Shown in pieces: positions 6,755 through 56,261 of a stretch of DNA of 64,000 nucleotides. Position numbers and translations under genes: made by a program. Source of the DNA: Allacma fusca (Eukaryota; Arthropoda; Collembola; Symphypleona; Sminthuridae); NCBI GenBank assembly GCA_947179485.1, contig OX359245.1, positions 71,969,067 to 72,033,066 of the forward strand, in the 5' to 3' direction. The stretch's first letter is position 1; the number at the start of each line of letters is the position of its first letter. The notes under the pieces were generated by a model. It was not told the DNA's origin and did not search any database. It worked only from the letters and a program-made list of their open reading frames with translations.

Positions 6755-6990
6755 TAGTGGTCGTCATGGGTACAAAATGGTTGACCCCGTTCCCCTTCCT
6801 ACTCAACGGGTACTCCCCTTAAGTGTTCTCGGGAACGGGTACAAAATGAAGACCAATATTCCTGTTCCCACTCCTGTTCCTGGTCCCAACGGTCGGGTCC
6901 ACTTGAGTATGTTCCTGTTCCTGTACCCAAACGGATTGGGAACAAAATATTTGTTCCCGTACCAGTTCCTGTACTCGTTTGTTCATAAAT
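6755..6990. mobile_element. hAT-like MITE, single end with GGGAAC-type array
   Basis: The sequence TAGTGGTCGTCATGGGTACA at 6755 is nearly identical to the terminal inverted repeat of the complete element at 11778-12993. It runs into degenerate repeats of GGGAAC/GGTAC-type units (both strands) up to about 6985. No opposite terminal repeat follows, so this is an end fragment and no target duplication can be shown. Short open frames across it are repeat artefacts. Confidence 0.6.
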
Positions 6991-9597
6991 AACGTACAAG
7001 CTCCAACAATGCGTCTTGTAAGAATGACGTTACGTTACGGGTTTTACATCGGGAAGTTTTTCTTGTAGCTTTACGAGTTTTTTATTTAATCGCTCACCGT
7101 AAATACCTTCCAAATGATTTCCCCCACATTAACTTAAAATTGTTACAAGTGCGCAAGTTTCACTTTCCTGCACCTGCAAACGAAGTTTGCTCAAATCGGT
7201 GCATTGCACGGATTTGTTTCATTGTCGTTATTTATTTATTGCGAAGATCGAAGTCCAAGACGTGCTTATTTCAATTTATTGTGTTAATTTTTAAAAATTA
7301 TATTATTATGCATACCAATGTCTTTAAGTGATAATTAGATCCTCGTAGCTCACTGTTTGCAAAAAAAGGTTACTTTTTTTGGAATCACTGCTATTTTCAA
7401 GGTTTAAAGAAGTTGGAAAACACAAACCCATTGTCCACCAATGTTTTGGTTCTTGAAGTGTTAGGATCCCATTTTTGAGCTGTGTGGCGTAACTTGTATC
7501 AGTCTCCACTTCCATTTTATTTTGTTACAATGTTTTTATAGATGTACTATTTTGTAGTACATATGACGGTTAATTTAATTTTAATTGTCTTCGTTAAACG
7601 ATTTAAATAATTGAGTATATCCGAAAACATTTATAACTTGCATCCTACGTACTTACATCCATGCGTATATCTTTGTTCTGATAAATACTCCATACCTGAG
7701 AGCCTAGCCTACATGCAACTCTTTTCTGACCAACCCTATTTTTGTATTATTACCTTACCCAATCTCGCAACGTACATATTTGCATTCCCTACATAAAGTA
7801 CTCTGAAGTACATACCAGCTTTTTGCTAGGATTTTGTCCAGAATCAATCCGGCAATCATGTACATGGAAATTGAAAATTCATCCACATCCTTTCAAGAAC
7901 ACCAATAAAAACTCTAAAATTCACCTGCTAAAATGGCGTACTTTAACAAGGAAATAAATCATTCTGTTTATTGGGAATGTTCCAAATCAAAAACAAGGAT
8001 CATTTTGAATACCGAAGCATAAAAGGACTTTACCCGGGTATTATTGGAAATTTTCAGGCTTCGGAGGACTCTGGAGGTTGTTAGGCAGGTTGGAAGCTTG
8101 GTCGGAAACGTGCGCCATATGTCGAGGGATGAGTGGTGCTGTTAAAATAAAAGATGCACAAGATGAATCGGTAGGGTTTGAGCTTTTCCGCTCAGGAATA
8201 ATAATTCGAATGTATTAAGACAATATGATAAACAAAAATGGTAAACACATATGGTAAATGAAAAACAACGCTTTCAATGTAGCGTGACCTACAATTAATT
8301 CACTTAGATTAGTGATGGGCGTTTCTTGAATAGAGATTCAGTCTGTTTCAGGATTATTTTTATTATCAATATGCACCAATTTCGGCAGAATATTAGAACA
8401 AATTTAGAACAAGTTCAGGCTAAGTTTCAGTTATGTAATTGCTTAAAATGTCAACCTGGATGTACATGGTCAGCTTATGAGCAAGGTAACTGCGAAAGCC
8501 TGGGGAAGCTCACAAATGCCGTATACGACATTGTGGCTTTATCTTTGGGCAATGCTGACTGCAATGAATTTAAGGAAGTGCTATGCTGAAAAGCTTCTAG
8601 CATGGCCCCTTCAAATTCGCACTATGATCCGGCGTGAAGATTCTTTACGTTTGAAAAACTTACTGTAGTAATATTAAAACCATTGAATGAATTTTTCAAA
8701 TGCTTCGAAAAATGTGTCTCTAATCTAGTATAAGCAAAATATTTCCCTTGAAATGTCATACAAAATTCCGTGTCAAATACCTTGAAATTGTCAAAGTACA
8801 ATTAACAAAACATTTTCACAATATATGACTTTTGGGCAAAGTCTGAAATTCGGGTTCAGCGGGTTCTCAGTATTTACGTATGTACACTTACAAAATCACA
8901 CAAATATATGGTAAACAATTTCCATGTATAAAAACCTCCTTATTGGAGCTCCGATATGAGTTCCAAAGTATCCCTCCTCAAATTCAAATGACACACTTTT
9001 ACGAAGAATAAACCTTTCAACATTTTGTCTTCCACAGTAATGAACGCTCAACTCTTCTTTTTGTCCAATATCATCATATGAGGTCAAGGTATAAAATAAT
9101 GGGTCTTGCATATCTACTTCTATGCTCAAAATCAGCTGTGCTCGTTTAAACTGGTGGTGAGAACTATTTTTGGGAATTAACACAATGCACATATGCGCGT
9201 ATAAACATTTATGCGCCTAGGAGCACAAAAACTACTATTGTTAATTAAACTGTTGTTTATTTACCAAAAACTCCTACAATTTTTAGAGGCACAAGATTAT
9301 TACAGTCATAAATATAAATGGTCATAAATATTTCCTATAACGAATGAAGCAACTCTAACTACGGAGGAAAATCCTGGAACAATTGGGGCATGACTTGAAA
9401 TCCCCCCCCCCAATGTATCATTTGGGTTCCCTGAGGTTCTTAGATCAACTTATGATCAACACCGGCCTTAATCTTTTCCAGATACATTTTTTGTAAATTA
9501 AAAAATTTATAATAAACAACAGTTACAAAATTGTTTTCAATACTGGAAAAGCAGAAAATGTATATAAAGCAGTCATTTAGAACTATGAGAGCCTAAA
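6991..9597. other. 2.6 kb without a recognisable gene
   Basis: Only short open frames occur (for example plus 8326-8589, with several Cys, and minus 8896-9192). None shows a known domain, a credible start with splice sites, or similarity to another part of the window. I annotate nothing here. Confidence 0.4.
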
Positions 9598-11076
9598 TTA
9601 TTCTACAATGAAATCCGAAATGGGTGGAGGTAGAGGACCAAGCACTACAAAAGGTAAGCTGTGCACGTTCTCATTATGCAAAGCCACAGATTGATTCTTC
9701 TCGTTCCGGTAAGTACAGATTTTGCAGGTGTACATGATTTGACTCGAGTCAAAATTATTTTCCTTCCTAGACTTACCAACAGCATTTCTATGACCTGTTT
9801 TCCTTACAGTGTTCAGTTGATGGGATCTCACATGAGAAATTAAATCATGGGTGTAAGGAGTCTCGTAATTACAATTTGCAATCGGGCACTTTTTTAAATA
9901 TGTCTGAAGCCGTTTGTTCTCCAAATGTTTGTACTGGTGTATTTTAAGGGCCTCGGGTTCCTTAGTACAGTGGTTACATTTGTCGCATTTGTAAGGCCCC
10001 TCAAGGGAATGGGACTTTAAATGTCTCAGGAGACGGGATTGGAAATAAGTTTGGTATTGGCAGGAGTCAAAGGAACATTTTTTAAATATTTTCTGCTTTT
10101 CCTCTCTGCTCAAATGCGTCAGTTGATGGGTTTTCAAGAGAGCTTGGGTTTTTCCAGTGTACTCGCACTTGTCACACTGGTAGGGCCACTTAACTGAGTG
10201 GGTCTTCAAATGATTGTTTAGACTACCAAAAAAATTTGTTTGAAATTGGCAGGACACAATGGGACAACTTCTCATCAGTTTTGTTCTTCCCTTTTTACTG
10301 CTCGAGTGCTGTATTTGATGGGATCTCAGTACAGCTGGGTATTTTCCTGAGTAGTCACATTTGTTGCACTTGAACGGCCGTTCCTCCGAATGGATCTTTA
10401 GATGGGTGACCAGGTTCGCACGAAAAATTGTTTCAAATTTGCATGACTCGAAGGGACATTTTTTCATGAGCTTCCGCTTATTCTTTGCACTCAAATGTAG
10501 CATTTGATGGTTTTTCAATGTTTTCTGCGTTTTTGCGGAGTAGTCGCATTTGTCGCACTGAAATGGCCGTTCCTCGGAGTGGCTCTTCAAATGATTACCG
10601 AGATTCCAGCTGTAAATGGTTTGGAAATGACAGGATTCAAATGGGCATTTCCTCATGCGTTTTTGTTTATTTTGTCTGCTCAAATGCTGAACTTGATGCC
10701 TTGTCAAGGATCTTCTCAGATTTGACGAGTAGCTGCATTTATCACACCTGAACGGTAGTTGAGCTGAATGTTCCTTCAAATTTGTTTGTGGGCTGATTTT
10801 GTGGACATTCAGGCTCAAATTTCTCATTGGATCATTTTGAGCTCCTTTGCCCACTTTTGTGCATGCTTTTTGCTTCCCCTCGGATTTTTTAAGCACTTGC
10901 GGGTCCTTACGTGAGGATTTTCTTTTGAAGGTCCTGGAATCCCGTGGCTGGAAATGTTCTATTTCTGTTTGAGGTTTAAGATTCGGATCACTCAAGGATT
11001 TGGAATTATTATTACAATCCCAATATGCCCTGTTTTTGGATCTTGCTTTTCCTCTTTGTGCTTTTGACGGTGTCAT
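9598..11076 (-). CDS. C2H2 zinc-finger protein, 11 fingers in alternating modules
   Basis: A 492-residue protein from the ATG at 11076 (an in-frame GTG lies 33 bases upstream). Residues about 1-95 are basic and Lys/Ser-rich without a recognised domain. Eleven C2H2 fingers follow. Ten form five tandem pairs: a Cx2C finger (such as FRCDKCSYSSNLRRSLTRHQ) followed by a Cx4C finger (such as CPFESCHFQTIYSWNLGNHL), with basic linkers. The eleventh (YTCKICTYRNEKNQSVALHN) stands alone near the C-terminus. All Cys and His ligands are present in the fingers I checked. Family knowledge supports nuclear nucleic-acid binding; target and role are unknown. A non-coding 5' exon may exist upstream but cannot be placed. 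A decayed zinc-finger relic lies 0.4 kb away on the other strand. Confidence 0.85.
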   Translation of the reverse strand: MTPSKAQRGKARSKNRAYWDCNNNSKSLSDPNLKPQTEIEHFQPRDSRTFKRKSSRKDPQVLKKSEGKQKACTKVGKGAQNDPMRNLSLNVHKISPQTNLKEHSAQLPFRCDKCSYSSNLRRSLTRHQVQHLSRQNKQKRMRKCPFESCHFQTIYSWNLGNHLKSHSEERPFQCDKCDYSAKTQKTLKNHQMLHLSAKNKRKLMKKCPFESCKFETIFRANLVTHLKIHSEERPFKCNKCDYSGKYPAVLRSHQIQHSSSKKGRTKLMRSCPIVSCQFQTNFFGSLNNHLKTHSVKWPYQCDKCEYTGKTQALLKTHQLTHLSREEKQKIFKKCSFDSCQYQTYFQSRLLRHLKSHSLEGPYKCDKCNHCTKEPEALKIHQYKHLENKRLQTYLKKCPIANCNYETPYTHDLISHVRSHQLNTVRKTGHRNAVGKSRKENNFDSSQIMYTCKICTYRNEKNQSVALHNENVHSLPFVVLGPLPPPISDFIVE

Positions 11077-11465
11077 CCTCACATGGGAAACTGTTTTCAC
11101 CAGCACCACTTTAGTTATACACGAATTATTTGCGAAAATTTATTTAAATAATTGCATTGAAATTATGAGACGGAATCAGTGTAATTATCTCTAGTCGTAT
11201 ATATTTTTAAATTAAGTTGATTATTTTAAACTCTCCTGCTCCTGAAATTCCCACAAGAGAAATACCTCTGTCAACGCCTCTCTTTCAATTAACATTGGAG
11301 ATCGAAATGAAGATTCACAGTCTTGTCTTGGCACTAGAAAATATCTGCGCAAATAATAATTTCAAAGAAATAAGAGTCATGATTCGTTATTTAATATTGG
11401 TACAAGTTTTGATTCCATGAAAGAATGGGTTCCAGAAAACAATTTTAACCTGAATAGTTTACTGT

Positions 11466-13127
11466 TTGTATCAAAATTCATTTGTAAAAGTAAAATCTGG
11501 CTGCTCATGTAATAAGACTCCACACAGAAGGGAGGCCACAAGAATACGAAAACAGCCCCTCTATTCTTGTACGTTCAGAGCTAAAAATCACCTCAACTTT
11601 CAACGTGAGCTTCACATTAGTGAAAAACCACAGATGCATATGCAATTTGTGCTGCAAGAGTTTTTTGCAAAAACTGGCAACCTTCAGGACCATAGGAGGA
11701 AGCTAACGCTAAGGAAAAACCTTAAGAGTGCTCGAATTGCCAGAGCAGGTTCTCAATAGTACTTTACTCAATGAAACCAGTGGTCGTCACGGGAACGGGT
11801 AAAACCCGGGAACATGGGAACGGGAACGAGTACAGGAACGGGTACGGGAACAAATATTTTGTTCCCAACCTGTTTGGGTACAGGAACAGGAACACGTTCA
11901 GGTGGACCCGACCACTGGGAACAGGAACAGTAGTGGGAACAGGAACCGATATTTTTAATTTGTTCCCGTTCCCATCGGGAACGGGTACGGTCTACACATG
12001 ATCCCGTTCCCATACCTGTTGTTCCCGGGATCAAGTGGGTACTTTTACCATTTTCTTGAAAAACACTCAAAATTGATCTTGGAAGACTTGATAGTACTTT
12101 ATTTATGTATACAATTCAATTTGCATATTCCATTCCGTTCTTTTTTTGTGCAATTTCTACGCGCATATCCTTGTCTTAAAGATAATAATGTTAGAACTCG
12201 TGTTTCAATACAGTTGCGGTATTTTCTAGAATAGTTCTACAAGTTAATATAGGAAATATTAAAATAATTATTATTAATTTATACTTTTGCTCCGCGTTTT
12301 ACCCTTGAAAAATTGATTGCACGAGTTAATATTCAAAAAAAATAAAACTAACAAAGGGAAACTAACCCGTGCTGGAATATATTTTTCAGATATATTTTAT
12401 ATGCAGAATAATTATCTTTGGGCCAGCAATTGATCTTAAATATTAAGTTCCATTTTGAAACCCGCATCAGTATTCAATTTTATTATTGGCAGAGCAATAT
12501 CAATGTTTCATTCATTCTTGCATCATTTCCCAGTATGTCATTTTAAAGTGTAGATATTCGGTCTACTCGGTACATAATCTCAGAAGAATTCAACAATCAG
12601 TAATTATACTGATACGTCTCGCTTTGGGAGAGCGTTTAGCCGCCCTGCATATTGCCTGTTTTTTATCTGCAAACGAAGGGTTTGATGGTTCGTGAAATCC
12701 TGATAATAATTTTTACCACATTTAATTACAATACGACTTGGACCCGGGAACGGGACCGGGAACACCAGCTGTGGGAACGGGTACGGGTCCAAAAAATTTT
12801 TAATTTCTGGGTACGGGAACAGGAACGGGTCCGGGTACACATTTTTATTACGTTCATGGGAACGGGTACCTAAAATACTGTTCCCATCATAACGGGAACG
12901 GGTCCGGGTACGGGAACACTTAAGGGGAGTACCCATTGAGTGGGAACAGGAACAGGAACGGGAACAAACTTTTTGTACCCATGACGACCACTGAATGAAA
13001 CCACATGTACAAGCTCATTCAAACGAGATACCGTACATTTGTCACGTTTGCTCGAAGCATTACAAAAACGCAAGAATTAACTGGGAACGGCATTCAGAGG
13101 AAATGTATTTTCCTTGCAGTATGTAAA
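11466..13127 (+). pseudogene. Eroded C2H2 zinc-finger gene relic, split by a MITE
   Basis: Several finger remnants can be read in different frames: NHLNFQRELHISEKPQ with an EKP-type linker (about 11580-11640), CICNLCCKSF in another frame just after it, FFAKTGNLQDHRRK, and CSNCQSRFS near 11735. After the inserted element, bases from 13002 encode PYICHVCSKHYKNARINWE followed by RH, then CSM and a stop near 13127. At least one frameshift separates the finger pieces upstream of the element, so the gene is dead. Without the element and one copy of its 8-bp duplication, the frame runs straight from CSNC to YICHVC. It may be a decayed relative of the zinc-finger gene on the opposite strand; the spacing of its fingers is of the ordinary linker type. 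Confidence 0.6.
11778..12993. mobile_element. hAT-like MITE 1 (GGGAAC arrays), 8-bp TSD aatgaaac
   Basis: A 1216-bp element with inverted ends CAGTGGTCGTCACGGGAAC (left) and CAGTGGTCGTCATGGGTAC (right, read inward). It is flanked by exact 8-bp duplications aatgaaac at 11770-11777 and 12994-13001. About 250 bp at each side consist of degenerate GGGAAC/GGTACGGG units, inverted between the two sides; the ~700-bp core is AT-rich and non-coding. End type and duplication length fit the hAT superfamily. No transposase is present, so it depends on a transposase encoded elsewhere. Confidence 0.9.
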
Positions 13128-13235: not shown

Positions 13236-13768
13236 TAGTGGTCGGACTAGTTCAGTTTGGTTCGTAAAATTCAGTTTAGTTCGGTTCACAAAGTGAACTG
13301 AATCAAAAATCAAAATTTCAGTTCAGTTAGCTATTCTTCGGTTCAGTTCAGTTCAGTTTCCTCTACGAACTGAAACTGAACTGAACTGAACTGAATATGT
13401 ATATATAGAGAGAGATTTTTTAAATAAGGGGTATACAGTTCTTTGTATTCCACTTTAATCTGATTTTAAATATGTTCAATCTAGTACTGTTCTAGCACTG
13501 CAAATGCAATCGCATTTTACGTAGATATTCCTTAAAAAAAGTAACAGTCAGAGATGAGAAGTGCGTCATACAGAACGTCAGAAACAGGCTTTATTGTGCG
13601 TGCGTAACAATCAGTTCAAACTATTCAGTTCAGTTCAGTTTTACGCTGGAACCGAACCATTCAGTTTAGTTTGTGTATCGAACTGAACCAAAATTTGTAT
13701 GAACCAAACTGAACTGAACTGAACTGAACTGAAATTTTCAGTTTTGAACTGAACTGGTCCGACCACTA
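13236..13768. mobile_element. hAT-like MITE 2 (GAACT arrays), 8-bp TSD gttcaatc
   Basis: A 533-bp element with ends TAGTGGTCGGACTAGTTCAG and TAGTGGTCGGACCAGTTCAG (19 of 20 identical, read inward). Exact duplications gttcaatc lie at 13228-13235 and 13769-13776. Left (to about 13395) and right (from about 13610) arrays are made of CAGTT/GAACT units in opposite orientation, so the two sides could pair over more than 100 bp. The core is non-coding. Confidence 0.92.
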
Positions 13769-13776
13769 GTTCAATC

Positions 13777-37291: not shown

Positions 37292-37496
37292 ATTATAGTT
37301 CTCCAATGACTGCTAGAAAAAACTACAGCCTTCACTTACATGAAGCCAGAAAGAATCCTCCTTTGTGAATTATTACTGAGGATTGCAAAATATGTTTTAA
37401 ATAGTGATCAAATAGCAGTTGGAATTACATAATTATTTTTAGAAGTAATTGACTTTTCCAACAGATTCATCTACTTTCTTCCCGTGCGTAAGAATT

Positions 37497-37568
37497 AGCA
37501 GAGTGGCGCAGTGGAAGCGTGCTGGGCCCATAACCCAGAGGTCCGTGGATCGAAACCACGCTCTGCTA
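37497..37568 (+). tRNA. tRNA-iMet-CAT: Initiator tRNA-Met (CAT)
   Basis: A 72-base cloverleaf: acceptor stem AGCAGAG pairs perfectly with CTCTGCT (37561-37567), discriminator A at 37568; anticodon stem CTGGG/CCCAG encloses CCCATAA, with anticodon CAT at 37529-37531. The A1-T72 end pair, the GGG/CCC pairs of the anticodon stem and the TCGAAA T-loop are marks of eukaryotic initiator tRNA. Internal pol III boxes: A box TGGCGCAGTGG (37504-37514) and B box GGATCGAAACC (37547-37557). A TTTT terminator follows at about 37575. No intron. Confidence 0.97.
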
Positions 37569-37595
37569 ATAAAATTTTGCAAATGTCGGATGGAC

Positions 37596-37716
37596 AATAG
37601 TATATATCGTTGGCGAAATTGTAAAAAGTACCATTTTTATTTGCAAATCCATTTAAAAAGCATAGGTTATGAAATGAAAATGGTACTTTTTAGAATTTAG
37701 CCAACGATATACTATT
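37596..37716. repeat. Snap-back inverted repeat, 121 bp, next to tRNA-iMet
   Basis: Arm 37596-37640 (AATAGTATATATCGTTGGCG ... AAAAGTACCATTTTT) is nearly complementary to arm 37672-37716 (AAAATGGTACTTTTTAGAA ... CCAACGATATACTATT), with a loop of about 30 bases. It could be a tiny palindromic MITE; TAT or TA flanks are possible, but no duplication is certain. Arms are well matched, so the insertion is probably young. Confidence 0.75.
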
Positions 37717-39673: not shown

Positions 39674-40030
39674 ATTAGCACTAGTGTTTCTATCGGTAAC
39701 AAATAGTTGAGCTCGACCCGAAACAAAAACCCGGTGTAAATTAAACTTTTTGTCCCGAACTCGAACTCGGGACATTTGAGTCGGGAAATTTGTTTGTACT
39801 CGAAACCGAGACCGTTAAAAAATGTTCTACCCTAAAACGACCTAAACTCGAACCGAAGCCAGACACAAAATGTTCGTAATTTTTTGTGTAAAAGTAAATT
39901 AATGTAGCAATCCCGGGACCCATTTTTAATTTCATTTTAATTAGGTACCATTGAACATCTTATCTTCCTTTTTTCTTTGATAAACTTGTTAGATCCTGAC
40001 TTTAACTGCGGTATTAAAAGCAGTATTGTA

Positions 40031-41292: not shown

Positions 41293-41738
41293 TATCTGCT
41301 TGAGTAGCACAAATTGGTGTGTTAAAATGTCGTAGTCAAACGAAAAAGCATCCAAGATAGGAATTCTATTGCCACGAATGGCCAAAAATTCCCGCGCTAT
41401 CCTTGCAACATTAGGGTACTTAGATTCGTGTGCTAACAAAAATTATGTAGATATGAGGAGTGTTATGCGGTGTACTTTTGCACAAAAACTTCATATTTTT
41501 TATTAAATCGAACTAGCTTGGTGGGACCAAAAGTCCGATTTTCATTGTTCAGGTAACATACATCAATAATTCCAAAATAAGTTTTTACTTTCGAGTTTTG
41601 GTGCGGAACGGTAGATTTTTCAAACTTGACCCGATTTTTTCGGGTCGAAAGTAAACGGTACCAAAAAATTAGACTCGAACTCGACTCGAACCCGAAACCT
41701 CGAGTTTCCGGAACTCGAACAAAAACACTAATTCGCAC

Positions 41739-42108: not shown

Positions 42109-43176
42109 ATGCTATCTGAGATTCCAAATACTGGTAATTTGTCACTAATATTTTACATATGTACATAAACATATTTCATAAAAATTCTAACCTCATGGAA
42201 GACGCCCTCAGTACATATAAAATCACTAGTACTAGATTTTATTTGTATTGTTTCTCCAGATTACAACAAACAACTATGTCATGCCATTAAAACCGGGCTT
42301 GAATATCTGGAAAGTTTATTTGATCGCAAACCTTGGCCATTTTCTTGCGTGTCGTATAGCAAAACACGAGAAGAATTCACAGATAATTACGAATCCAGAC
42401 ATAAAGGACATGACGAAGTGTTCACTCATTACTTAGCATTACGTGTTCTCGGAGAGCACTTTTCACCTGCAATAAAGGAGCGTCTTATTGAGTTGACTCT
42501 GCCCAGGTCCTTGGATGCTGTGCGGTACTGGGTCTCGTACGATGCCATACCTGCCGATACTGACACAACATCGCTGGCTTATTCGGCTCTTCTCAAACTG
42601 AATGTGGTTACCGAATCCGATGTACAAGACGTTGCCAAAAAGGTTTTTGCTAACAAAACGGATCAAGGGACAGTTGATTTGTTTTTTGATTCACCGAAAT
42701 ATAAGGACATATACGATGCGTCAGTCATGGCTAATGTACTTATCCTGGCATATATATTGAAACAAGAAGACCAAGTAACGAAAACTGAGGACTACGTTTT
42801 TAACTGGTTGACATCCGGGCAATGGAAAAATGGAACCCTGTTTTACCATGCTGGAATGATATTTCTTTACTACTTGTTGGAAGTGATTAAAACCAATCGG
42901 AAATTCCAAACTAGATTCAAGTCACATGTGGAAAAAGCAGTGATGGACTGCACACCAAAATTTCCGTTGGATGTTGCCTTTAAAAAGTTAATTCTTGTTA
43001 ACTTACAATTAGATTTGCCGGATGTTAAATTGGAGTTGGACAGAACTTTGCTTGATATGCAAAGGGAAGATGGCAGTTGGCCAGCTGATGGGGCTTGGGG
43101 TCATTGGGATAAAGTATATTGGGGTGGGGAAGCCGTTTCCACTATGTTTGCTGTTGCTGCATTAATCTCATCTTAG
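42109..43176 (+). CDS. Terpene-cyclase / squalene-hopene-cyclase-like (alpha/alpha-toroid) protein
   Basis: Two exons, 42109-42133 and 42260-43176, joined by a 126-bp GT-AG intron in phase 1, give 313 residues starting MLSEIPNTDYNKQLCHAIKT. Residues 108-112 are DTDTT within IPADTDTTSLAYSAL, matching the acidic DxDTT/DxDD motif that protonates the substrate in class II terpene cyclases. Residues 276-282 (QREDGSW) match the QW motif (QxxxGxW) of squalene-hopene-cyclase and prenyltransferase repeats. The remainder is predicted largely helical, without signal peptide or membrane segment. At 313 residues it equals about one barrel domain; known two-domain cyclases are longer, and I see no second domain in the neighbouring DNA. 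Arthropods lack hopanoid cyclases, so transfer from a microbe is inferred; the intron argues it is a real host-genome gene. An AATAAA is near 43443. The reaction is unknown. Confidence 0.75.
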
Positions 43177-43789: not shown

Positions 43790-43981
43790 AAAAACGAGCA
43801 CTGCACAGCCAGTATTTGCTGGCTCAGAACGGCAAATGTAAATAAGGAAGGCAGTAAATAGTTGTATGCAATAGCTAGCTACATATAGCTATGGTAGTCG
43901 CTACAGCCAGAGCGCGCGAATATTTGAATCTTACCATCACGGACACGGAGACTATCCACTCTTTCAACTTAGAAGAGAGGA
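43790..43981 (-). mobile_element. Helitron 5'-end fragment, inverted relative to the 62 kb copy
   Basis: Read on the minus strand, the sequence begins TCCTCTCTTCTAAGTTGAAA at 43981, preceded by A, and continues for about 190 bases in step with 62148-62345 (shared TTGCATACAACTA, GAGCCAGCAAAT, TGGCTGTGCAGTGCTCGTTT). The TC start after A fits a Helitron 5' terminus. No hairpin/CTAG 3' end occurs nearby, so the copy is truncated. Confidence 0.65.
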
Positions 43982-44273
43982 TATCCAGGCGTCCTACCAC
44001 TTGTTTGAATTGACATATTGTAAAACAAATTGAGGTCAAAACATTTGTTCATTACCCAAAATGGTTTATTACTTCTGGGTGTATTTAATCCAATAAAGTA
44101 TAGCAATAACTCGGTTTCTTGAGTCACGACATGTTTACTTAGCTGTTAACGTGTGCACGCAAAGTTTTTCAGCATCTAATTCCTTAAGAAGCTCAGTATT
44201 ATTCAGTATGTATTTACAATTCCGTGTGAATTGGAAAATAAAATTACTACGAAGAATTGAGCAGAACTTTACA

Positions 44274-46442
44274 ATGCCACTTTTAGGAAATTTACGATTT
44301 TTCATATTATTTTGTGCAATTACGCCCTTAATATTTAGTAAGAAACATTCTGTAAATTTCAGTGACTTGAGTTTCTGGCAAGAGGTATTTCAAGACTGTT
44401 TGAAAATCTTTTACAGCCCAAAAGTGGTGTTAGAGAACCTTCATGAAAGTATCCATCCAATAGTGTACTACACAGTCCCATACATGAAATCTCCAAACCC
44501 ACAAATTTTCAGCCTCATTGAATACATTCAATCGGTTTCGAAGCCATCCAACTGTCAGTCTTCTTTTTTATTCTTTAACGGAGAAGCTTTGAAATCCTGG
44601 AAAGCCTTCTCCTATCACGCATCACGAAGCGAAGGATTTCTCACCAGCTATCAGGTCCAGCCTTATATAATTTTAGGAGTCATAATTAAAGCTCCTTCAA
44701 AATCCGAATACCTGAGGAATGCCAAGTATTTCTCAGAATATTATGCTGCCTTCTACCAGCACCATAATTTAAACTGGTTCTTGTCAGCATTCCTTCTAAA
44801 TCCAAGTTATGACAAAATAATCCCTAGAAATAAAACAAAAACCATTTACATTCACGCTTTTCTTAAAGTGTGCCACGAATGTTTTCACTCAAGATGGAAA
44901 TCTCACGATATAGTGATCCAGAGGAAGGACCCTCTAATTTCCCGTGAAAACATTCAAACCATCTGCAATTATCACAGCGATCATAAAATCTATCAGCCGG
45001 AGTTTGCAAACATTCATTTGGAAAAACAGGATTTATTCCTGGACTTGCTTCAAATGGGGAAACTCGTCTTTACCGCCAAAACGGATTTTAACAGATATGA
45101 ATTTATTATCATGTCAATTGCAAATAAAAGATTCTCAAATTCAAGTTTCTTCAGCCCATATTTTAGCAGCCCTCAAAGTCAAGACAGTAGAATTGTTAAC
45201 TCTCAGGTTTTGTTCAACTCCCGGGAGAGCACGCAGGCATTTTTGCCTTTGAGAAGCGACAGCGTCATGTTCATTTCCTGCGACGGCGTGGAAACGTCCC
45301 TCACCTACAAAATCTACAGCGACCCCTTCCAGGATAATACTTGGGTCTTCATTTTTGCATTTGCATTCCTCACGGGGGTTTTCCTGGAATTTCATGTGAA
45401 ACAAGCCCTCGTTAAAATTTACCCCATGCTAATGTTACCTTTAAGAGCACTTCTGGAGCAAGTGGACGTGGATGAGGGGGAGGTTCCAAAGACGAGGAAA
45501 CTCAAAATGGTCATGACCATGTGGTTGCTGGCCTCAGTTGTTTTGAGTAATGCATATAAAGGGATCCTCACTTCGGACCTCACAGCCCTCAAACCTGCAA
45601 AGGGTTTTCAAGCTTTTGACAATCTTACGGATTTTGATTTGATTATTTCCCCTTACGAACAATTTTATGAAAGAGTTCACTTCGGAAAAAACACAGAATT
45701 TGATAACTACATTATTTCTGACTTCCCGGTTCCTCTTCAATCGGACTTGAGCCGGCTGATGAAGCCCACGTCTGAAGAATTAATTTTTGAGGCCAGAAAG
45801 AGGGACAGATACCAGGTGAGTTTAACTTCACTCAAGTATCGACTTTTGGCGTACTCCAAAGTTGGGGGATTTTTCCTCAACTTTTTTATCCATCAAATGA
45901 TAACCCAGGATGAGAATGACTTTCAGAGGTCTGTGAGGAATGTGAGAGTACTGGAAAAGGCTGTGGGGATTTCTCAGCACTTGTGCTATCCTTTGAGTCC
46001 TAATGTGCGAACTTTGGTGGATCATGTTCTGTCATGTGATCGTGTGGCCTTTTTAGACTTTGAGAGCAACATTATGAACTTGCAGATTTCAAGGGGGAAA
46101 AGGGCAAGTTTGAGGACAAGTCCTTTAATTCTGGGGAAGGAGAAACTTTTAACGGGGGTTGTTGGATGGGCTTGCCAGGATTCGGCTTCTTATTCCTTAT
46201 TGAGGTTTTTGGGGAAGATTAATGAAGCAGGGATATTCCTTTGGTTGGAGGGGAGGATCAATTCTGTACAGGAGACTAAATTGGAATTGAAGTATTGGAT
46301 TAGCACTCCTCGAGGGGTTGAGGAACTTAAAATATCCTCGAATTTTACTCAAACTTTATTTAGTATATTTAGTTTCTTGTGTGCCATTTGCATGGGGTCC
46401 TTTGCTTCAGAAAAATTCATGAAAATGTTTTACTGGAACTAG
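44274..46442 (+). CDS. Divergent ionotropic receptor (IR), intronless, intact
   Basis: A 722-residue receptor in one exon. The ATG at 44274 is preferred over the one at 44208 and a non-ATG start at 44151, because it opens a signal peptide (MPLLGNLRFFILFCAITPLI) in the same position as in the paralogue at 50006. A long extracellular ligand-binding part is followed by M1 near residues 353-375 (WVFIFAFAFLTGVFLEFHV), a pore/M2 segment (MLMLPLRALLEQ), M3 near 415-435 (WLLASVVLSNAYKGILTSDL, the counterpart of the SYTANLxSxLT helix), a second ligand-binding half, and M4 near 689-709 (TQTLFSIFSFLCAICMGSFA). Layout and lengths fit an IR. Together with the broken copy 3.5 kb downstream it forms a tandem pair separated by a solo LTR. 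Chemosensory function is inferred. Confidence 0.87.
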   Translation: MPLLGNLRFFILFCAITPLIFSKKHSVNFSDLSFWQEVFQDCLKIFYSPKVVLENLHESIHPIVYYTVPYMKSPNPQIFSLIEYIQSVSKPSNCQSSFLFFNGEALKSWKAFSYHASRSEGFLTSYQVQPYIILGVIIKAPSKSEYLRNAKYFSEYYAAFYQHHNLNWFLSAFLLNPSYDKIIPRNKTKTIYIHAFLKVCHECFHSRWKSHDIVIQRKDPLISRENIQTICNYHSDHKIYQPEFANIHLEKQDLFLDLLQMGKLVFTAKTDFNRYEFIIMSIANKRFSNSSFFSPYFSSPQSQDSRIVNSQVLFNSRESTQAFLPLRSDSVMFISCDGVETSLTYKIYSDPFQDNTWVFIFAFAFLTGVFLEFHVKQALVKIYPMLMLPLRALLEQVDVDEGEVPKTRKLKMVMTMWLLASVVLSNAYKGILTSDLTALKPAKGFQAFDNLTDFDLIISPYEQFYERVHFGKNTEFDNYIISDFPVPLQSDLSRLMKPTSEELIFEARKRDRYQVSLTSLKYRLLAYSKVGGFFLNFFIHQMITQDENDFQRSVRNVRVLEKAVGISQHLCYPLSPNVRTLVDHVLSCDRVAFLDFESNIMNLQISRGKRASLRTSPLILGKEKLLTGVVGWACQDSASYSLLRFLGKINEAGIFLWLEGRINSVQETKLELKYWISTPRGVEELKISSNFTQTLFSIFSFLCAICMGSFASEKFMKMFYWN

Positions 46443-46752: not shown

Positions 46753-48371
46753 TGTCGGGTTTAATTATACGCGTAGGCGTATATACCAACATACCACCAA
46801 CATACCACCAACATACCACCAACATACCACCAACATACCACCAACATACCACCAACATACCACCAACATACCACCAACATACCACCAACATACCACCAAC
46901 ATACCACCAACATACCACCAACATACCACCAACATACCACCAACATACCACCAACATACCACCAACATACCACCAACATACCACCAACATACCACCAACA
47001 TACCACCAACATACCACCAACATACCACCAACATACCACCAACATACCACCAACATACCACCAACATACCACCAGACATACAACAGCCAGTTGCTTTACA
47101 TGAGTAAAGTTTCTTGGGGGATGGAGCAGAGACGTGCTCACTATCCTCAGTGTCACTGGAATCACTAGAGACTATTCTCTGTCGGGTTTAATTATACGCA
47201 TAGGCGTATATATATTTATGTATATATATATATTTGCCTCATTTGGAGGGAATCCTTGTTTTGGGGAGCCGAAGAGCTCCAGGGTTTTGAATATAGGAGC
47301 CGGTAGGCTCATTAGTTAAATTGAGGGCTCGGATGAGTCTCACCTGTTTTGTTTACCTGGCCATGGGTTTTTTTAGAGGCTGGCCAGGTTAATTATAAAT
47401 CTATTTATAGAAGTGAGGCTCCCTGTCCCGACCCACTTAAATTAATTTAGTTTATTAGTATTTTTATGCTGATCCAGTGAACACCATCTATGTATATATA
47501 TGTACTCCCGTAAGTACCTGCTCTAATATACATATATATAGTGTTCAAAAGTGAAGTGCTCGAATTATTTAAAAGACTCCTGACCCAGCCGATGGCTTGG
47601 TCCTCTCAAATTTCAGGAGGTCACGGAGTGACTCCTTTGTTCCATGAATGGTCCCGCTTGAAACTTCTCCTATATAAAGAGAAGGTCCTCCAGGGATCAG
47701 CGTCAGATATTTCTTTTGTAGAGGCCAGATATGCTTTTGTCTGAAATCTTTATCTTTCGAAGTTGTGATTTCTGAGTCATTACTGTGTTATTACCTGCCG
47801 AGTATTATAGATTTTTGTTGCTAGACATTGTTCTTAGAATTATTCTGAGTAATTATTTTTTTTGTTCATGATCCTAAGAGTTCCGTGTGGAACTGGATTA
47901 ATTTATTCTCTATTTGTTGAAAGTTATAGATATTATTTAATTGTTAATAAAATAGTAACTATAAATTAGTTACTAGACTAAACTTACCCTTTTGAAATCT
48001 TTACAAGAATAATTTATTCTGTTGATTCATATTTATAGTTCAGAATCCTCATCCACCTTACCCTTCCTGCTCACGACCTTTTGTTTTCGGACTTTTACGC
48101 AAAAGTGCCATACCCTACCCCCTTTTTGTGGAGTTTTCTCTGCGAATAGGCTACAAATTAATATTTGTTGGGGACCGTGATTGACGAGAACCAATCCTCC
48201 TATTCCTTATAAAATTTCCTATTCTTAGAGAGGGTCATAATCTCGTAGAGTTAGTCTGAGAGGAAAACTGAACATAGGAAATACAGTTGACGTACATACA
48301 AGCCATCTCCGCTAACTATTTTAGTAGTGCTACTTTCTTCGTCTCCTGGATCCTCCGAAATCTTGCCGACA
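46753..48371. mobile_element. Solo LTR (Ty3/gypsy-like by TSD), 4-bp TSD atac
   Basis: A retroviral-type LTR fossil without internal region. It begins TGTCGGG (46753), ends CCGACA (48371), and is flanked by 4-bp duplications atac (46749-46752 and 48372-48375). Regulatory parts are visible: a TATATAAAG box near 47671 and AATAAA near 47947. The unusual length (1.6 kb) is partly due to an internal minisatellite and a second copy of the first ~34 bases at 47180. The 4-bp duplication suggests Ty3/gypsy rather than copia or BEL, but family is not certain. It arose by recombination between two LTRs; the exact duplication suggests moderate age. Confidence 0.7.
46785..47074 (+). repeat. 11-bp minisatellite, about 26 units
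   Basis: The unit ACCAACATACC repeats about 26 times without visible change. Because 11 is not a multiple of 3 and the unit has no stop on the minus strand, all three minus frames stay open and would encode repeats of VVCWWYVGGML; these frames are not genes. It lies between two copies of a ~34-bp stretch starting CTGTCGGGTTTAATTATACG (46752 and 47179). Confidence 0.97.
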
Positions 48372-48375
48372 ATAC

Positions 48376-50005
48376 AGTCTTATGAATAAATACAGGTACT
48401 TGAAATGTAAACATAATTCACGTTTTTCAAATAAAGCGAAAATTAAATTAAAAAATATTTCGTAACTCTATGACAGTGGGGACGGAAAATACACACGGCA
48501 TTGTTTAAAGTAGAGCATGAGTGAAAAGAGAAACTTGTCTTCTGTTTCCTGACTGAACTTTCATGTACAGTTTTTGGAAACGAGAATTGTCCTTTGAGCT
48601 ATATATTAAACGATGGATCATTTCTTAAATAAAATAAGTCTGAGATGAAAATTAGCTTTAGAAGATCAAGAGAGGTTGAAATGTCAGCTTAAAATATCCC
48701 AACATTTTAATTGAAGGTTTATGAATCTCTTTCAGCATTTTGCAGCTGCGTCTAAAATCACTGGTCCAGTGGTCCCTATTTACTCAAAAAACAAAACAAT
48801 TTTGAGGCTAAAACAGTGTAGTGATAAATCTGAATACTAATCTGCAACCATTGAAAGTTACATGCATCCTGCTATATTAACGTATGTATAAAATATATTT
48901 TAATTGTAAATGTCTTGTAGATTGTAACGTAATTAAACGATTTTAAAGTGATCTCTACAGATACACAACCGGTGCATCACTTCAAAAATCAATGTACTGC
49001 AGTTCTTTCACAACAGAGTTAATTCTCGTAATCATTATACATAATTGACATTTTGAACACTGGTAAAGATGAATTTAAAATCTTTACCAAAATACATTTT
49101 AGCCTATTTAGGGACTCGCCAGGAAAGAACCAACTGATTCTTTCCTGGCGAAAAAAGTTGTAAATCGTGGTCAAACAATTGAAATGACACATCCTAGCAA
49201 AGTTATTTGAGTTTAGGATAGCATTATGACCAAACCCGTTTCTTAATGTACCTAACTGATATTTAAGAACTAACTTTTCAGGAGTGACACAACTTGCAGA
49301 ATATTTGGGATAAAATAATTAAAATAAGATGTTTAATTAATTATAAAGAAGGTCAAATTATTTATACTGCAGCTAGCCCGTAACTAGGAAAGCATAATTT
49401 CCTCATTTATAAAGTTTACCGAGTCAAAGGTAATATTAAGGAAGCGTAGCATTCAGGAAGTAACATTTTGGAAGTTACAACATTTCGTGTAGGAAAATTA
49501 ATTCATAACACTCAAATGTAACTTGGAGAGGCAGGAAGCATGTTTTTAAGTCAATAAAATATTAACAAGTATGTACTCTTGAATGCTGGATTTTTGCATT
49601 TGTAATTAAAGCTTTTCGGCATTTTCGTGGTTTCATTACACATTTGGTAACGCAATTGCAATACTGAATCACTTGAGAGTATATATTATATTAACCCAGC
49701 ACAAAATCTATTTCCGGGGATTGGATTTTCCTTGTATAGTTTTTCTTGTAGTAAACTGAATTAATAAAAATCACATATTTTTCTATGAGCGAATGGTCAG
49801 CGTTTTTAATCCAGCGCAATATTTACAAGCATCCCTCTTTTGCGTTGAATGTGTCCTTTCGTTTTATTCTAGCAAACCTTAAATTTTTGTATAATTCCGT
49901 ATCTACACTTGTCAGCAATACGATAAAATCCAGCGCTAGCTAATTGTAAGTGCACGTGAAAATAAATTCTGTATTATTTAAAGAAACCGTCAACTTACGT
50001 TCACA
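48376..50005. other. 1.6 kb without a recognisable gene
   Basis: AT-rich sequence between the solo LTR and the broken IR. No RNA gene, repeat or coding segment recognised. Confidence 0.4.
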
Positions 50006-53000
50006 ATGAGAATTTCAGAAAATATTTCCATTTTGATATATGTTATTACAATTTTACGCCCATCATTGAGCAAAGACCGTTCGGTACACTTCACGGACCT
50101 GAATTCCTTTCAAACAGTATTTCAGGATTGTTTGAATGTCCTTTACACCCCTAAAGTAAAACTAGAGAATCTTCATGAAAACATCGGACCAATTGTGCAC
50201 TACACAACACCTTTCTTGGAATCTCGAGATGGGAATTTTTTCAGACTAATTGAATACATCCAAGCATATTCAAAACCATCCAATTGTCAATCAGTCTTTT
50301 TATTCTTTAATGGGGAAGTTCTCAAGTCCTCAAAAGTGTTTTCTTACTACTCTTTACGTAGTTTCGGCTTCCTCACAACATATAAAGTCCAGCCGTACAT
50401 AACGTTGGGAATAATTGTAAAAGCTGCAATAACATCAGAATATCACAAGAAAAACAAATTATTCGCAGAATTTCACACCATGTTCCACGGTCGTAGCAAC
50501 TTACACTGGTTTTCCGCCGTATATCTTCTAAGTCAAAGCTCTAAAAATAAAAACCCAAAGAGTAAAACTAAAAACGTTTTTATTCACACCTGGCTAAAAT
50601 TGTGCCACAAATGTTTTCACAAGACTTGGGAATTCCACGATCTACAAATGAATAGTTACCGGAACAACATTACCCAATTCAGAGAAAAACTCCAAATGTA
50701 CTGTATTTACCAAAGCCGGCACAAACTCTACTTCCTGGGATTGGACGTAGCCGGTCAGAATTTACATATGGCAAGCGAATACACCCCATTACTTGAAAGG
50801 GGCAAACATATATTTACATTCAAAACCCCTCTTGCAAACTATGAATTTGTTATTATGTCAATAGCAACGGACAAATTCTCGAATTCAAGTTTCTTCAGCC
50901 CTTTCTACAACTACAACATTCATCAAACTTCTGGGCATGAAAATCTGGACTCAAAATCAATGGTCTCGTTTCGCTCCTACGAAAGTACACAAGCATTTTT
51001 GCCATTAAAAAGTGATAGCATAATGTTCATTACCTGTGATGGCGTGGAAGCATTCCTAACCTACAGGATATACAGTGACCCATTTCAGGCTAACACTTGG
51101 CTTTGTATTTCCGCAATTGCAGTACTTACCGTAATTTACCTGAAATTTCATGCAAAAGGCAGTCACGTATATGCAATGCTTTTATTGCCTTTAAGAACAC
51201 TTCTGGAGCAATTGGACGTGGAATTGGGGACGAAAAAATTAAAACTGGTCATGACCCCATGGCTACTGGCGTCCATTGTTTTGAGCAATGCTTACAAAGG
51301 AATCCTTACTTCTGACCTCGCAGCCCACAAGCCTATCCATGGTTTGGAATATTTCGATAACCTTACGGATTTTGATTTAATAATGGCTCCCAGTATTTAT
51401 TAATTACCCTTGGGAGCTCGAATCTAACCGAGATTTCAATGAGAACATTATTTCTTATATTTGGCCTACTCAGTATGAATTATAATATGAAATGTTTAGA
51501 CCAACGGCGGGAAAAGCTGCTCTGGAGGCCAAACAGCGAGACCGATTTCAAGTTAGTCTAACCACGTCAAGATTTGGATATTTGGCTATGTCTAAAATTG
51601 GGAGATTTATCCTCAAATTTGCGATCCGTAAGATTCCTTCCCGGAGGGAGAATCAATATGAATTATCTCCACGAGGCATGAAATTACTTAAAAAGGTTGT
51701 GGGACTTTCCAAACGCATGTGTATTGCTTCCAACCCTTCGGTAAAAACTTTAGAGGATCATGTCCTATCGTGTGACCGGGTAGCTTTTGTGGATTTCGAG
51801 AGTAATATCATGAATCTGCAGATTTCAGAGGAGAAAAGGAAGGTTTTGTTGACGCGCCCTTTGATTTTGGGGAGAGAGAAACTTATTTCGGGGACAGTCG
51901 GATGTAGTGCTCCGCATGGGTACAAAAATGTTGTACCTGGACCTGAACCTGTACCTGAATCATGGGTATATGGATTCTTTGAACCTATACCCGTACCTGT
52001 ACCTGAATACCTGGGTTCAATTTTCCTGAACCTGTACCTGTACTCAAACCAAATCAGGAGTACCTGTACCTGAAAAGTACCTGTACCCAAAAAGTACCCA
52101 AAAAGTACCTGTACCCGGGTATATTTTAAAAGTACCTGAACCTACCCGGGTATTTTCCATTGTACTAATTTAAAGGATTACCAAATATTTTACACGAAAT
52201 AAAAAATTAAATATCTGCGACATTTTGACTCAATAAATTTATTTATCTGATTAGATATATTTTTATTATTTATTCTTCGAAAGAATGACTAAGTACTGGA
52301 ATTATCAGTGGCTAAAAATGATTACATAAAGGTAGAAAAGGATAATAGATAGCAAAATCTACGATATGAATAAGTTCAATACAACAATACAAATGCAGTG
52401 TAATATTTTCTAAACGTTCAATAATGGCGAGAAATTAAACGATTAAGAATTTGTTTTGCACCCTGCAATTTCTTTTGCAATGGAAAACATTTTTTTAGAT
52501 TCAAACTCCTCAGATTTTAACTTCAGCCAAGCTTTGAAACAAAAACATTTCCTACCGTAACTCCACTCTTATATAAGCGTTTATGCGTCAGAAGATCTGG
52601 GCCATAGGAGAAGGCTCGCTCAATCTTAGATCTCTGTTCTTTAGCAGTTCCAGGAACTGATAAAAAATCTCTGGTCATTCCAGCTAATGCTATGCTGGGT
52701 AACTAGCCACGCGTTCCTACAGTATACGGAAGAATTAGCTTTCCTGACTGATTGTGAGCTTATACGTATAAATTTTAATGTAAAATGTTTCAAGGTCAAA
52801 AATTCGGAGGAGTTTTTAAAGCTCAACAGCACCTTTACAGGCATTACTTGGAAATTATTATTGACTGAAAAGTACCTAAAAGTTCAGGTATTTTACATTC
52901 AGGTTCAGGTATTTACCCAGTGCGTACCCGTACCTGATGGGTTTATACCCAAAAGATTTCATTTTGTACCTGTACCCATACCTGAACCTGAACCTGAATT

Positions 53001-53409
53001 TTCAGGTATCTTACGACTGAACCTGAACCTGTACCCAAATTGGATGGGTACAAGAAGTATGTACCTGATACGTACCTGTACCTGAACCTGTACCCAAATA
53101 CCCGGGTAAAACCTGTACCCATGTGGGGCACTAGTCGGATGGGGATTTGCAGACTCCTCGTCATACTGTTTATTGAGCTTTCTGAGGGAGCTTCACGAAG
53201 CTGGGATTTTCCTTTGGGTTGAGAAAAGAATCAGGTCTTTACAAGAAACCGGGCTGGAGTTAAAATATTGGTTAAGCGTTTCAAGAGGAGTTGTTAAACT
53301 TCAAGTCTCATCTAATTTCGCTCAAACCTTATTTAGAATTTTCACTTTTTTGTGCTCCTTTTGTTTTGTGTCTTTTGTTTGTGAAATGATCCGAAGGGTG
53401 TTTAGGTAA
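50006..53409 (+). pseudogene. Ionotropic receptor paralogue, broken by frameshift, stop and a MITE
   Basis: The ATG at 50006 opens a signal-like N-terminus (MRISENISILIYVITILRPS) and a frame colinear with the intact IR at 44274 over its whole length: PSNCQS.FLFFNGE.LKS, WLLASIVLSNAYKGILTSDL, DHVLSCDRVAF.DFESNIMN and the end VSSNFAQTLFRIFTFLCSFC. The frame is lost after FDNLTDFDLIMAPSIY (51403), continues in another frame (YPWELESNRDFNENIISY), meets a TAA shortly before 51492, then is open again to ISGTVG, where a 1.2-kb MITE (51905-53133) sits. After it the receptor continues from 53142 (GFADSSSYCLL; SFLRELHEAGIFLWVEKRIR) to a stop at 53407-53409. The receptor is therefore dead, but its sequence is still close to the intact copy, so loss is not ancient. 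Confidence 0.88.
51905..53133. mobile_element. hAT-like MITE 9 (CCTGTACCTGAA arrays), 8-bp TSD gtcggatg
   Basis: A 1229-bp element with ends TAGTGCTCCGCATGGGTACA and TAGTGCCCCACATGGGTACA (18 of 20 identical, read inward). Exact duplications gtcggatg lie at 51897-51904 and 53134-53141. Arrays of CCTGTACC/CCTGAACC units occupy about 51925-52150 and 52870-53120 in opposite orientation; the core is AT-rich and non-coding. The inner part of the terminus (ATGGGTAC) is shared with MITE 1, so the two families are related. Confidence 0.94.
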
Positions 53410-54765: not shown

Positions 54766-54827
54766 TACGAAAACTTTCAAACCGTGGTCTCACCTTTAAA
54801 GTCAAATATCTCTGGACCCGATGCTAA

Positions 54828-54946
54828 TTAAAAGATTACCAGCAAATTTATAGTATTTGTAGTAATGAATTCAAGCATGGTGAGAACCATTCCCATATCG
54901 CAGAAGTAGAATGACCCAACTGTTATCGTCAGTGGTTGGCAGCTCC
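54828..54946 (-). pseudogene. Duplicated 3' end of the gustatory receptor gene
   Basis: On the minus strand this encodes SCQPLTITVGSFYFCDMGMV followed by LTMLEFITTNTINLLVIF and a stop, almost the same as the C-terminus of the receptor gene at 56262. The similarity continues into the 3' flank (to about 54766). Upstream of this short piece the sequence does not continue as receptor, so it is only a tandem duplication of the gene's end (spacing about 190 bp before the MITE inserted). Confidence 0.85.
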
Positions 54947-55014
54947 ACGATAGGATACCCTTTGAAACTTTCAACACCTCGACCTCGCAGCTTCAAAGTC
55001 AAATAAGTCTGGAC

Positions 55015-56241
55015 CAGAGCTGCGCTCAAGTCAAGTAAATCCCAAACTTGACCCTGAACTTGACTTGAACCTGACAGTCAAGTAGGTTTTTTAGACGGTC
55101 TTGAACTTGACGGTTCATGGTCCGACAATTACTTGAAAATTCAGGGTCAAGTAATCAAGTACTTTTCGCGTAACTTGAACCTGGTCAAGTATAGCCGGGA
55201 CAACTATTGACTTGACCATGACTTGACCATGACCCGAACTTGAACATGAGTTGAATTTTTAAGTTTTTTCAAAATAGAAATAGAGAAATATTATTCACGC
55301 TTAAAATACAGCACGTACAGCATTTATGGTTAAAACATAGCAAATAGCAATGTTATTCGCAATTCACAAGCTTCTCCAAGTAAATGTTGAGTTGCTGCTT
55401 CAGTTCGATGCTTTAATGTCTTGTGTTTTAGTCTCAGTGAACCTTCAATCAAGAAAAATTACGAATAGTCTCTGTTAATTGTAAGATAGACAGTCTTTTA
55501 GGTGTAAGTACATCATTTCGCATTGAATTTTACTATTAATAATAATTACTTGCGCTAACATTCCAGTCTGGGTTGCTTCACTAAAAATATCCACAGTTCA
55601 GCTTCCTCCCTGTTAATGAAACTAGCTGGCTTATGTAGTAGTGTTTAACGTTGTACAAATGTTAAATTATTTAGAATCAAAATAGTACTTGGATTTTAGT
55701 AACTTAATTCATTAACAATGCGCTTGTTTTATACAACAATTGAATACTGTTGCTTTCATAAGTGCTGCTCCAAAGTTTTTATATTCATATTCTTAAGTTC
55801 ACTATTGCAGCTTTGGCTTTCCAAGCGTATCTAGAGGTATTCAATCGTAACGCAAAAATATGTAATTTAGACGAACATGCATGGATACAGAGTCTCGGAG
55901 TAACGACAATGAACATTTTGAAAGAAAGTCTATTGAAATATACGGTGCCACAACTTCGTTATGCGTAACGTTTCGTTATTTGAATAAGTACTTGAAATAC
56001 TCACGGTTCATGGTCAAGGATTTAAACATTTTCACTTGACCATGAACATGACTTGACTCTCAAGTAGAACTTTTTGTCTTGACCATGATAGCTACTTGAT
56101 TTCAAATCTCAGGGTCAAGTAAATAAATTACTTGACCATGCCTTGAATGTTCAAGTATCCATTATATTTTACTTGACCATGACCCGAACTTGACCATGAC
56201 TTGAAATACTCATGGTCTACTTGAACTTGAGCGCAGCTCTG
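55015..56241. mobile_element. hAT-like MITE 10 (ACTTGACC arrays), 8-bp TSD gtctggac
   Basis: A 1227-bp element with ends CAGAGCTGCGCTCAAGTCAA and CAGAGCTGCGCTCAAGTTCA (first 17 identical, read inward). Exact duplications gtctggac lie at 55007-55014 and 56242-56249. Arrays of ACTTGACC/CAAGT units fill about 55025-55260 and 55975-56230; the core (about 55270-55970) is AT-rich. It sits just behind the receptor gene's stop codon, within the tandem duplication. Confidence 0.94.
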
Positions 56242-56261
56242 GTCTGGACGCCCGGTCGAAA

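Follow-up and report, generated by a model that had tools for sequence, protein, structure and literature searches.

Short repeats in the ends are already known for hAT transposons (PMC4890040, PMC3143072, PMC3260210). The stretch described here is a 64,000-bp window of the genome of the collembolan Allacma fusca (GenBank assembly GCA_947179485.1, contig OX359245.1, positions 71,969,067 to 72,033,066, forward strand). It contains ten hAT-like elements with repeated units in their ends, and the new part is that these arrays keep one strand direction at both ends over several families. Searches of open-access text for a same-direction rule across hAT families gave none. Among the hAT papers compared, each drawn on in part, repeat direction is described for Hermes and Kat1 only and is tied to end asymmetry in Hermes only.

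Hermes is a housefly hAT element in which BED domains bind subterminal AAG(T/C) repeats (STRs) (PMC10368747). Its left end carries STR1 in sense and STR2-7 in antisense orientation, and its right end carries STR1-5 in sense orientation. Left-end STR1 and STR2 form a quasi-palindrome that is proposed to be bound first. Transposons with two left ends are nearly inactive and those with two right ends are wholly inactive, so end asymmetry is needed (PMC10368747). Because the left and right STR1 align with each other and share the label sense, the published convention would be an inward one, and the outer Hermes sites would run in the same direction along the element.

The maize Ac/Ds system includes non-autonomous elements with 8-bp target-site duplications (TSDs) and transposase-binding hexamers (AAACGG) in about 200 bp of each end (PMC3260210). 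The Allacma elements resemble it in their apparent lack of autonomy, their 8-bp TSDs and the repeated units in both ends, but they differ in tips and unit, and the parts of PMC3260210 drawn on here make no mention of a shared strand direction. Herves carries a CG/AATTCAT repeat in both ends that is bound by its transposase, with the two ends bound asymmetrically (PMC3143072). The short subterminal repeats of Tgf2 are likewise bound by transposase, and such repeats are called defining for hAT elements yet "haphazardly present" (PMC4890040). Like Herves and Tgf2, the elements described here repeat a short site in both ends; unlike the haphazard presence of PMC4890040, most of their arrays run in one direction. 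Kat1 of Kluyveromyces has hAT-type ends with six hexamer copies between them (PMC4763223).

A protein-array study in coelacanth reports that hAT-derived DNA-binding proteins recognise at least eight distinct motifs (PMC8097297). For four hAT-encoded proteins, the binding motif matches subterminal sequence of the element that encodes the protein, and a single genome holds differing motifs. This diversity fits the family-specific units found here and makes the range of unit types in one genome less surprising than was claimed in the original prediction of these elements, which was made from the letters of the window.

Ends and strand direction of the arrays

The ten elements are real, and their ends and TSDs exceed chance. 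A blind scan of the window sought terminal inverted repeats (TIRs) matching at 10 or more of 12 positions with the first three bases exact, spans of 80-3000 bp and an exact 8-bp TSD, with 25 dinucleotide shuffles as control. It returned six matches, all starting with YA: 11778-12993, 13236-13768, 34078-34904, 35123-36094, 51905-53133 and 55015-56241 (elements are named below by their first position). These are exactly the six for which exact duplications had been predicted, against a shuffle mean of 0.24 and a maximum of 1. Exact duplications of 7, 9, 10 or 11 bp gave zero YA-starting matches; lengths of 4, 5 and 6 bp gave 18, 4 and 4, at sizes where chance is larger and no shuffle comparison was made. 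When one TSD mismatch is allowed, there are 11 YA-starting matches (shuffle mean 1.04, maximum 3), comprising the six exact ones, the predicted 7-of-8 cases 32232-33115, 36843-37291 and 39682-41730, and chance-like matches at 13304 and 34406 inside other elements. With 26672-27513 included, the TSD is exact in six of the ten elements and matches at 7 of 8 positions in the other four.

The hAT tip consensus is C/TA(A/G)NG. Both tips are YAG in eight of the ten elements, and the left tip is C/TAG in nine. The fifth-base G is missing from 34078 (TAGGC) and, at the left tip, from 32232 (CAGAA); 35123 starts with CAT, and 26672 fits at its left tip only. The hAT features found here, namely an 8-bp TSD and subterminal repeats in both ends, together with tips that fit in most but not all elements, support the classification of the elements, as judged from sequence, as non-autonomous, cut-and-paste and hAT-like with family-specific arrays.

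The existence of the arrays was assessed by a k-mer comparison of the two arms that uses no chosen unit (k = 5, 6 and 7, first 20 bp excluded). In eight of the ten elements, the arms share direct-orientation k-mers above all 4000 random region pairs from the rest of the window at every k; 34078 and 39682 are weaker, with fractions of 0.0003-0.0083 over both orientations. Chosen core units are scarce mid-element, with 0-2 matches in each of seven cores (267-669 bp) and 0 in the 1489-bp core of 39682; no core remains for this count in 13236 and 36843.

The arrays run in one strand direction at both ends, clearly in six of the ten elements (with significant unit counts in five), weakly in two and not at all in two. 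The original prediction stands for termini, TSDs and arrays, but it had the arrays inverted between left and right, and direct similarity beats inverted similarity in eight elements both by alignment and by k-mers. In local alignments of the arms, scored as z against shuffles, 34078 ties, 13236 is reversed, and 39682 lies within the shuffle range both ways. The direct and inverted z values are 18.3 and 5.5 for 11778, 17.0 and 5.2 for 51905, 20.5 and 6.1 for 55015, 5.6 and 1.1 for 32232, 4.7 and 1.2 for 35123, and 4.6 and 0.9 for 36843. Inverted similarity also exceeds shuffles in 11778, 51905 and 55015 (z 5.2-6.1) and in 13236 (8.6), because the arms contain some opposite-direction units. The k-mer ratio of direct to inverted sharing is 1.29 to 5.42 in the eight elements, 0.92 in 13236 and 0.79 in 34078.

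One chosen core unit per element was also mapped more than 25 bp from the tips, and inward and outward units were counted in the left (L) and right (R) arms. The inward/outward counts are L16/5 R3/17 in 11778, L17/1 R2/15 in 51905, L12/1 R0/9 in 35123, L3/0 R0/11 in 36843, L8/1 R2/9 in 32232, L10/4 R4/10 in 55015, L4/0 R2/4 in 39682 and L5/0 R1/2 in 26672; 13236 (L5/5 R3/5) and 34078 (L4/5 R3/3) are mixed. Fisher p ranges from 6.4e-07 to 0.0055 (<0.01) for 11778, 51905, 35123, 36843 and 32232, and is 0.057 for 55015, 0.076 for 39682 and 0.11 for 26672. This test treats units as independent, although units that stand in tandem blocks depend on one another, and the choice of core units was made after inspection. 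Because the core units are post hoc and non-independent, the unit-free k-mer test carries the weight.

In five of the ten elements the array reverses next to a single tip, on the right in 11778 and on the left in 51905, 55015, 35123 and 36843. In 11778, 51905 and 55015, the tip unit is equally placed at both tips (within 1 bp) and takes part in the inversion of the TIR. The array opposes this unit at one end only. Such elements resemble the published Hermes ends (PMC10368747) in their inverted tips, many short subterminal sites per end, sites of one end turned against the first, and a quasi-palindrome by one TIR. The Hermes-type turn at one end only is confined to these five; 32232 keeps one direction with no turn, 26672 and 39682 are weak, and 13236 and 34078 do not have it. 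Unlike in Hermes, the units are family-specific and partly tandem, several kinds stand side by side, and no transposase was found.

The ten elements and their relations

Element 11778-12993 is a hAT-like, apparently non-autonomous element with TIR CAGTGGTCGTCAYGGG and exact TSD AATGAAAC; like the other nine, it is given on the + strand. Its GGGAAC/GGWAC units keep one strand direction in both arms. The right end is the flipped end, with a unit at 14 bp that points inward and a following unit at 28 bp that points outward. A second copy of this family lies at 6752-6979 (-), is one-ended and internally deleted, and has one TIR missing. It matches 11778-12993 at 83% and 86% and keeps parts of both arrays, with the core and one tip lost.

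Element 51905-53133 (tips TAGTGCYCCRCATGGGTACA, exact TSD GTCGGATG) carries same-direction CCTGWACC units, and its left end is flipped, with units at 14 and 28 bp; the first two units of this end thus lie as far from the tip as those of the flipped end of 11778. It lies inside a receptor-type gene. This gene is the second of two receptor-type paralogues on the + strand, 44097-46442 and 49982-53400, in both of which the Lig_chan match is below the cut-off. The second paralogue is broken by the element, and its reading frame also stops near 51403. Element 55015-56241 (TIR CAGAGCTGCGCTCAAGT, exact TSD GTCTGGAC) has CTTGA(CC) units that run mostly in the same direction and a flipped left end.

Same-direction arrays also occur in 35123-36094 (TIR CATGCTTGCAAC, which is not YAG; exact TSD GGGTAAGA; TGAAC units), 36843-37291, a hAT-like miniature inverted-repeat transposable element (MITE; tips CAGGGAT, TSD 7 of 8, AATCC units), and 32232-33115, a hAT-like element (tips CAGAAAATTGG/CAGAGCATTGG, TSD 7 of 8, AAATAC units). 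The last adjoins 32162-32221, a 60-bp fragment that resembles a portion of the AATCC element 36843 at 80%. Element 26672-27513 is a probable element with weakly same-direction ATTCNAAT units. Its predicted imperfect TSD holds at 7 of 8 positions (CACCATAG/CACCATAT), but the left TIR CAGGGCTGG has no counterpart at the right tip. Two elements depart from the same-direction layout: 13236-13768, a hAT-like MITE (TIR TAGTGGTCGGAC, exact TSD GTTCAATC) with GAACT units in both orientations, and 34078-34904, a hAT-like element (TIR TAGGCATGTTCATA, exact TSD ATACATAC) with near-palindromic CGATAT units of mixed orientation.

Element 39682-41730 is hAT-like (tips TAGTGTTT, TSD ATTAGCAC/ATTCGCAC, 7 of 8), has weakly same-direction CTCGA units, and is split by a Tc1/mariner-like insertion at 40029-41294 (+; range including the flanking TA). 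The insertion contains a transposase-like reading frame in two pieces, in which HTH_Tnp_Tc3_2 scores 21.3 bits, under its cut-off of 31.5. Because of this nested insertion, the core of 39682 is not simply non-coding, as all cores had been described; the other nine elements, of 449-1229 bp, contain no recognised domain.

Near-copies of the uninserted target are present in the window for three elements. When 51905 and one duplication are removed, the flanks read ...GTVGWGFADSSSY..., which is colinear with ...GVVGWACQDSASY... of the intact paralogue at 44097-46442; the nucleotide alignment has compensating 2-bp gaps just past the insertion site. The target of 35123 aligns with 34940-35028, and the site itself is ungapped. 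The target of 55015 has its near-copy at 54788-54946, where the alignment shows a 2-bp gap at the insertion point.

The ends of 11778 and 51905 are related in swapped orientation (11788-11890 to 53123-53022, 70% over 103 bp). On this ground, the proposal that each element forms a family of its own was rejected. The predicted difference of unit in every family is thus overstated, and several units share GAAC by eye; the units themselves remain family-specific. GGAAC occurs 13 and 12 times in the arms of 11778 and zero times on the unit strand of the 51905 arms, and GGTAC occurs 4 and 5 times in 11778 versus 11 and 13 times in 51905. The two arms within each element share 354 and 459 6-mers, versus 102 and 72 for corresponding arms of the two elements (crosswise 112 and 68). 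Both arms of a family therefore appear to have changed together, which supports concerted change in the single comparable pair. The predicted homogenisation within families is borne out to this extent.

Many copies per family had been named as evidence that would support the prediction. Within the window, the further copies are limited to 6752-6979 and the 60-bp fragment at 32162-32221. A scan for further complete elements (YA tips, TIR 8 of 12, TSD 7 of 8, 200-3000 bp) gave 85 candidates in the window, and the 12 with strongly shared arms are nine elements already listed and three that overlap those.

Surroundings of the elements

The content of the window is arthropod-like and includes ligand-gated receptor-type genes (whose Lig_chan matches fall short of the curated cut-off), an M2 peptidase exon, a C2H2 protein, a reverse transcriptase of the non-long-terminal-repeat (non-LTR) type and a tRNA-Met gene. 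The C2H2 zinc-finger open reading frame (ORF) at 9598-11139 (-) is repeated internally in sequence. The non-LTR reverse transcriptase ORF at 59074-61818 (+) is long and open (RVT_1, E 9e-32). A 250-amino-acid ORF at 2898-3650 (-) lacks a Pfam match and, judged by eye, may be like ORF1 of a long interspersed nuclear element.

The ORF at 42169-43176 (+) has no Pfam match and aligns with the drimenol synthase structure 9mhs (E 8e-21; residues 125-332) and with AstC structures. It encodes a terpene-cyclase-like protein, a kind known from microbes, in an arthropod-like contig, and possibly derives from horizontal transfer. A search of this ORF against plasmids gave no match.

Several repeats lie outside the hAT-like elements. 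A nearly perfect array (99% matches) at 46785-47081 comprises 27 copies of the 11-bp unit ACCAACATACC. Shortly after the tRNA-Met gene (37496-37569), a palindrome-like stretch of 121 bp at 37596-37716 has 40-bp arms that are 93% complementary. A dispersed pair of about 190 bp, 43792-43982 and 62147-62338, is inverted and 83% identical.

Readings of the common direction

Transposase-binding sites are the best reading of the arrays, by analogy with the Hermes sites, the coelacanth motif matches and the Herves repeats (PMC10368747, PMC8097297, PMC3143072). The arrays would be multiplied sites for a BED-type DNA-binding domain of the cognate transposase. Because their strand direction mostly stays the same from one end of the element to the other, left and right would not be equivalent. 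At one end, the tip-nearest units and the array would agree; at the other, the array would oppose the tip-nearest unit and create a quasi-palindrome near the TIR. This difference would tell the transposase left from right and thereby bring a left end together with a right end, in line with the proposal for Hermes (PMC10368747). The explanation as a whole, in which the elements are non-autonomous and hAT-like, the arrays are binding sites and the direction marks end identity, is held with moderate confidence. A role for direction as the end-identity mark is likely, at a lower confidence than that.

Beside the dependence among units in the Fisher tests, several points weigh against this explanation. 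Elements 13236 and 34078 have no common direction, and 39682 and 26672 are weak. As a bare count, eight of ten gives p 0.055, and seven of nine, with related families counted once, gives 0.09 (hand arithmetic); five of five clear lineages gives 0.03, with clear ones only counted. The tip-nearest units lie at unequal distances in 35123 (18/34 bp) and 36843 (13/3 bp) and are therefore not one TIR unit. In Hermes, restoring the asymmetry of the first three sites in a transposon with two left ends gave no rescue, and mutations of inner sites had little effect (PMC10368747). Repeat polarity in Kat1 is said to differ between the ends, which we read as an inverted layout (PMC4763223). No hAT domain was found at E 1 in any of the 20 ORFs of at least 60 amino acids in nine elements, and two elements have no such ORF.

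The strongest alternative accepts the arrays as binding sites but takes their common direction to be functionless, a leftover of direct-orientation copying between arms (by gene conversion or by template slippage in post-excision gap repair) together with local duplication of blocks. Multi-unit blocks do stand in tandem: one of 63 bp (x 2.1, 100%) in the left arm of 35123 (35201-35335) and one of 41 bp (x 4.1, 86%) in the right arm of 36843 (37092-37260). The arms of 55015 share a 35-bp stretch in direct orientation at 94%, and the two arms of a family change jointly. The copy at 6752-6979 has lost the core and brings the two arrays together; its junction lies no more than 2 bp from a GTTCCCG that stands in direct orientation on both sides in 11778 (not necessarily its parent). 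However, if the tip unit alone were duplicated locally, inverted arrays would be expected in 11778, 51905 and 55015, whose tip units are inverted, and end asymmetry matters in Hermes (PMC10368747). We regard this origin as rather improbable, though it has the most in its favour among the alternatives.

Some elements could instead belong to another superfamily with 8-bp duplications, for example P, with the CAT-starting 35123 the likeliest case. This element is off the hAT tip consensus, and no transposase was found for any of the ten. Because of the latter, hAT membership is argued from ends and duplications. The C/TAG left tip in nine of ten elements, and exact YA-starting duplications that occur at 8 bp and at none of 7, 9, 10 and 11 bp, make another superfamily unlikely. 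Searches elsewhere gave little: hAT transposase relatives, with their own end sequences, were sought in viral and prokaryote contigs, and none was confirmed. The terminus of 11778, the one terminus so searched and used as a 16-base pattern, hit 45 loci in viral contigs. These are attributed to chance because 0 of 45 have as many as three array units within 150 bp. A Pfam-family search of two virus records gave no hAT transposase and is uninformative, 14 control genomes being silent too. Searches of 51905 against plasmids and of 11778 against phages, the only two elements so searched, gave no match.

The original prediction offered pairing stems beside binding sites, in which the ends pair mutually, or each folds into hairpins, and the structure is recognised. 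Element 13236, with its mixed orientation and strong local inverted repeats (13337-13360/13372-13395), would suit such folding, as would the quasi-palindromes near several tips and the inverted arm similarity above shuffles in 13236, 11778, 51905 and 55015. Same-direction arrays, however, cannot pair end to end within a strand, so pairing between ends is unlikely in the elements that have them, and in 32232, 35123 and 36843 the inverted similarity does not rise above background (z 0.9-1.2). Stems are thus disfavoured and very improbable as an account of the arrays, and of these two readings binding sites are retained. Ordinary simple repeats or satellite placed by chance, which the short AT-rich units of some elements and the tandem blocks of 35123 and 36843 might suggest, are contradicted by a distribution in which core units are near-absent mid-element and arrays stop at TIRs with TSDs, and this origin can be given next to no credence.

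The preferred explanation, binding sites whose direction marks end identity, extends tentatively to the superfamily. Array strand direction might be a general hAT end-identity code in which the unit varies with the transposase, the direction is kept with one tip-proximal flip, and a left end pairs only with a right; such a code is possible but doubtful. Direct arrays would also offer natural places for slippage, from which internally deleted copies could arise; 6752-6979 may be an example. Should a single direction prove to hold across unrelated families, left/right recognition by hAT transposases would be testable from sequence alone in any genome.

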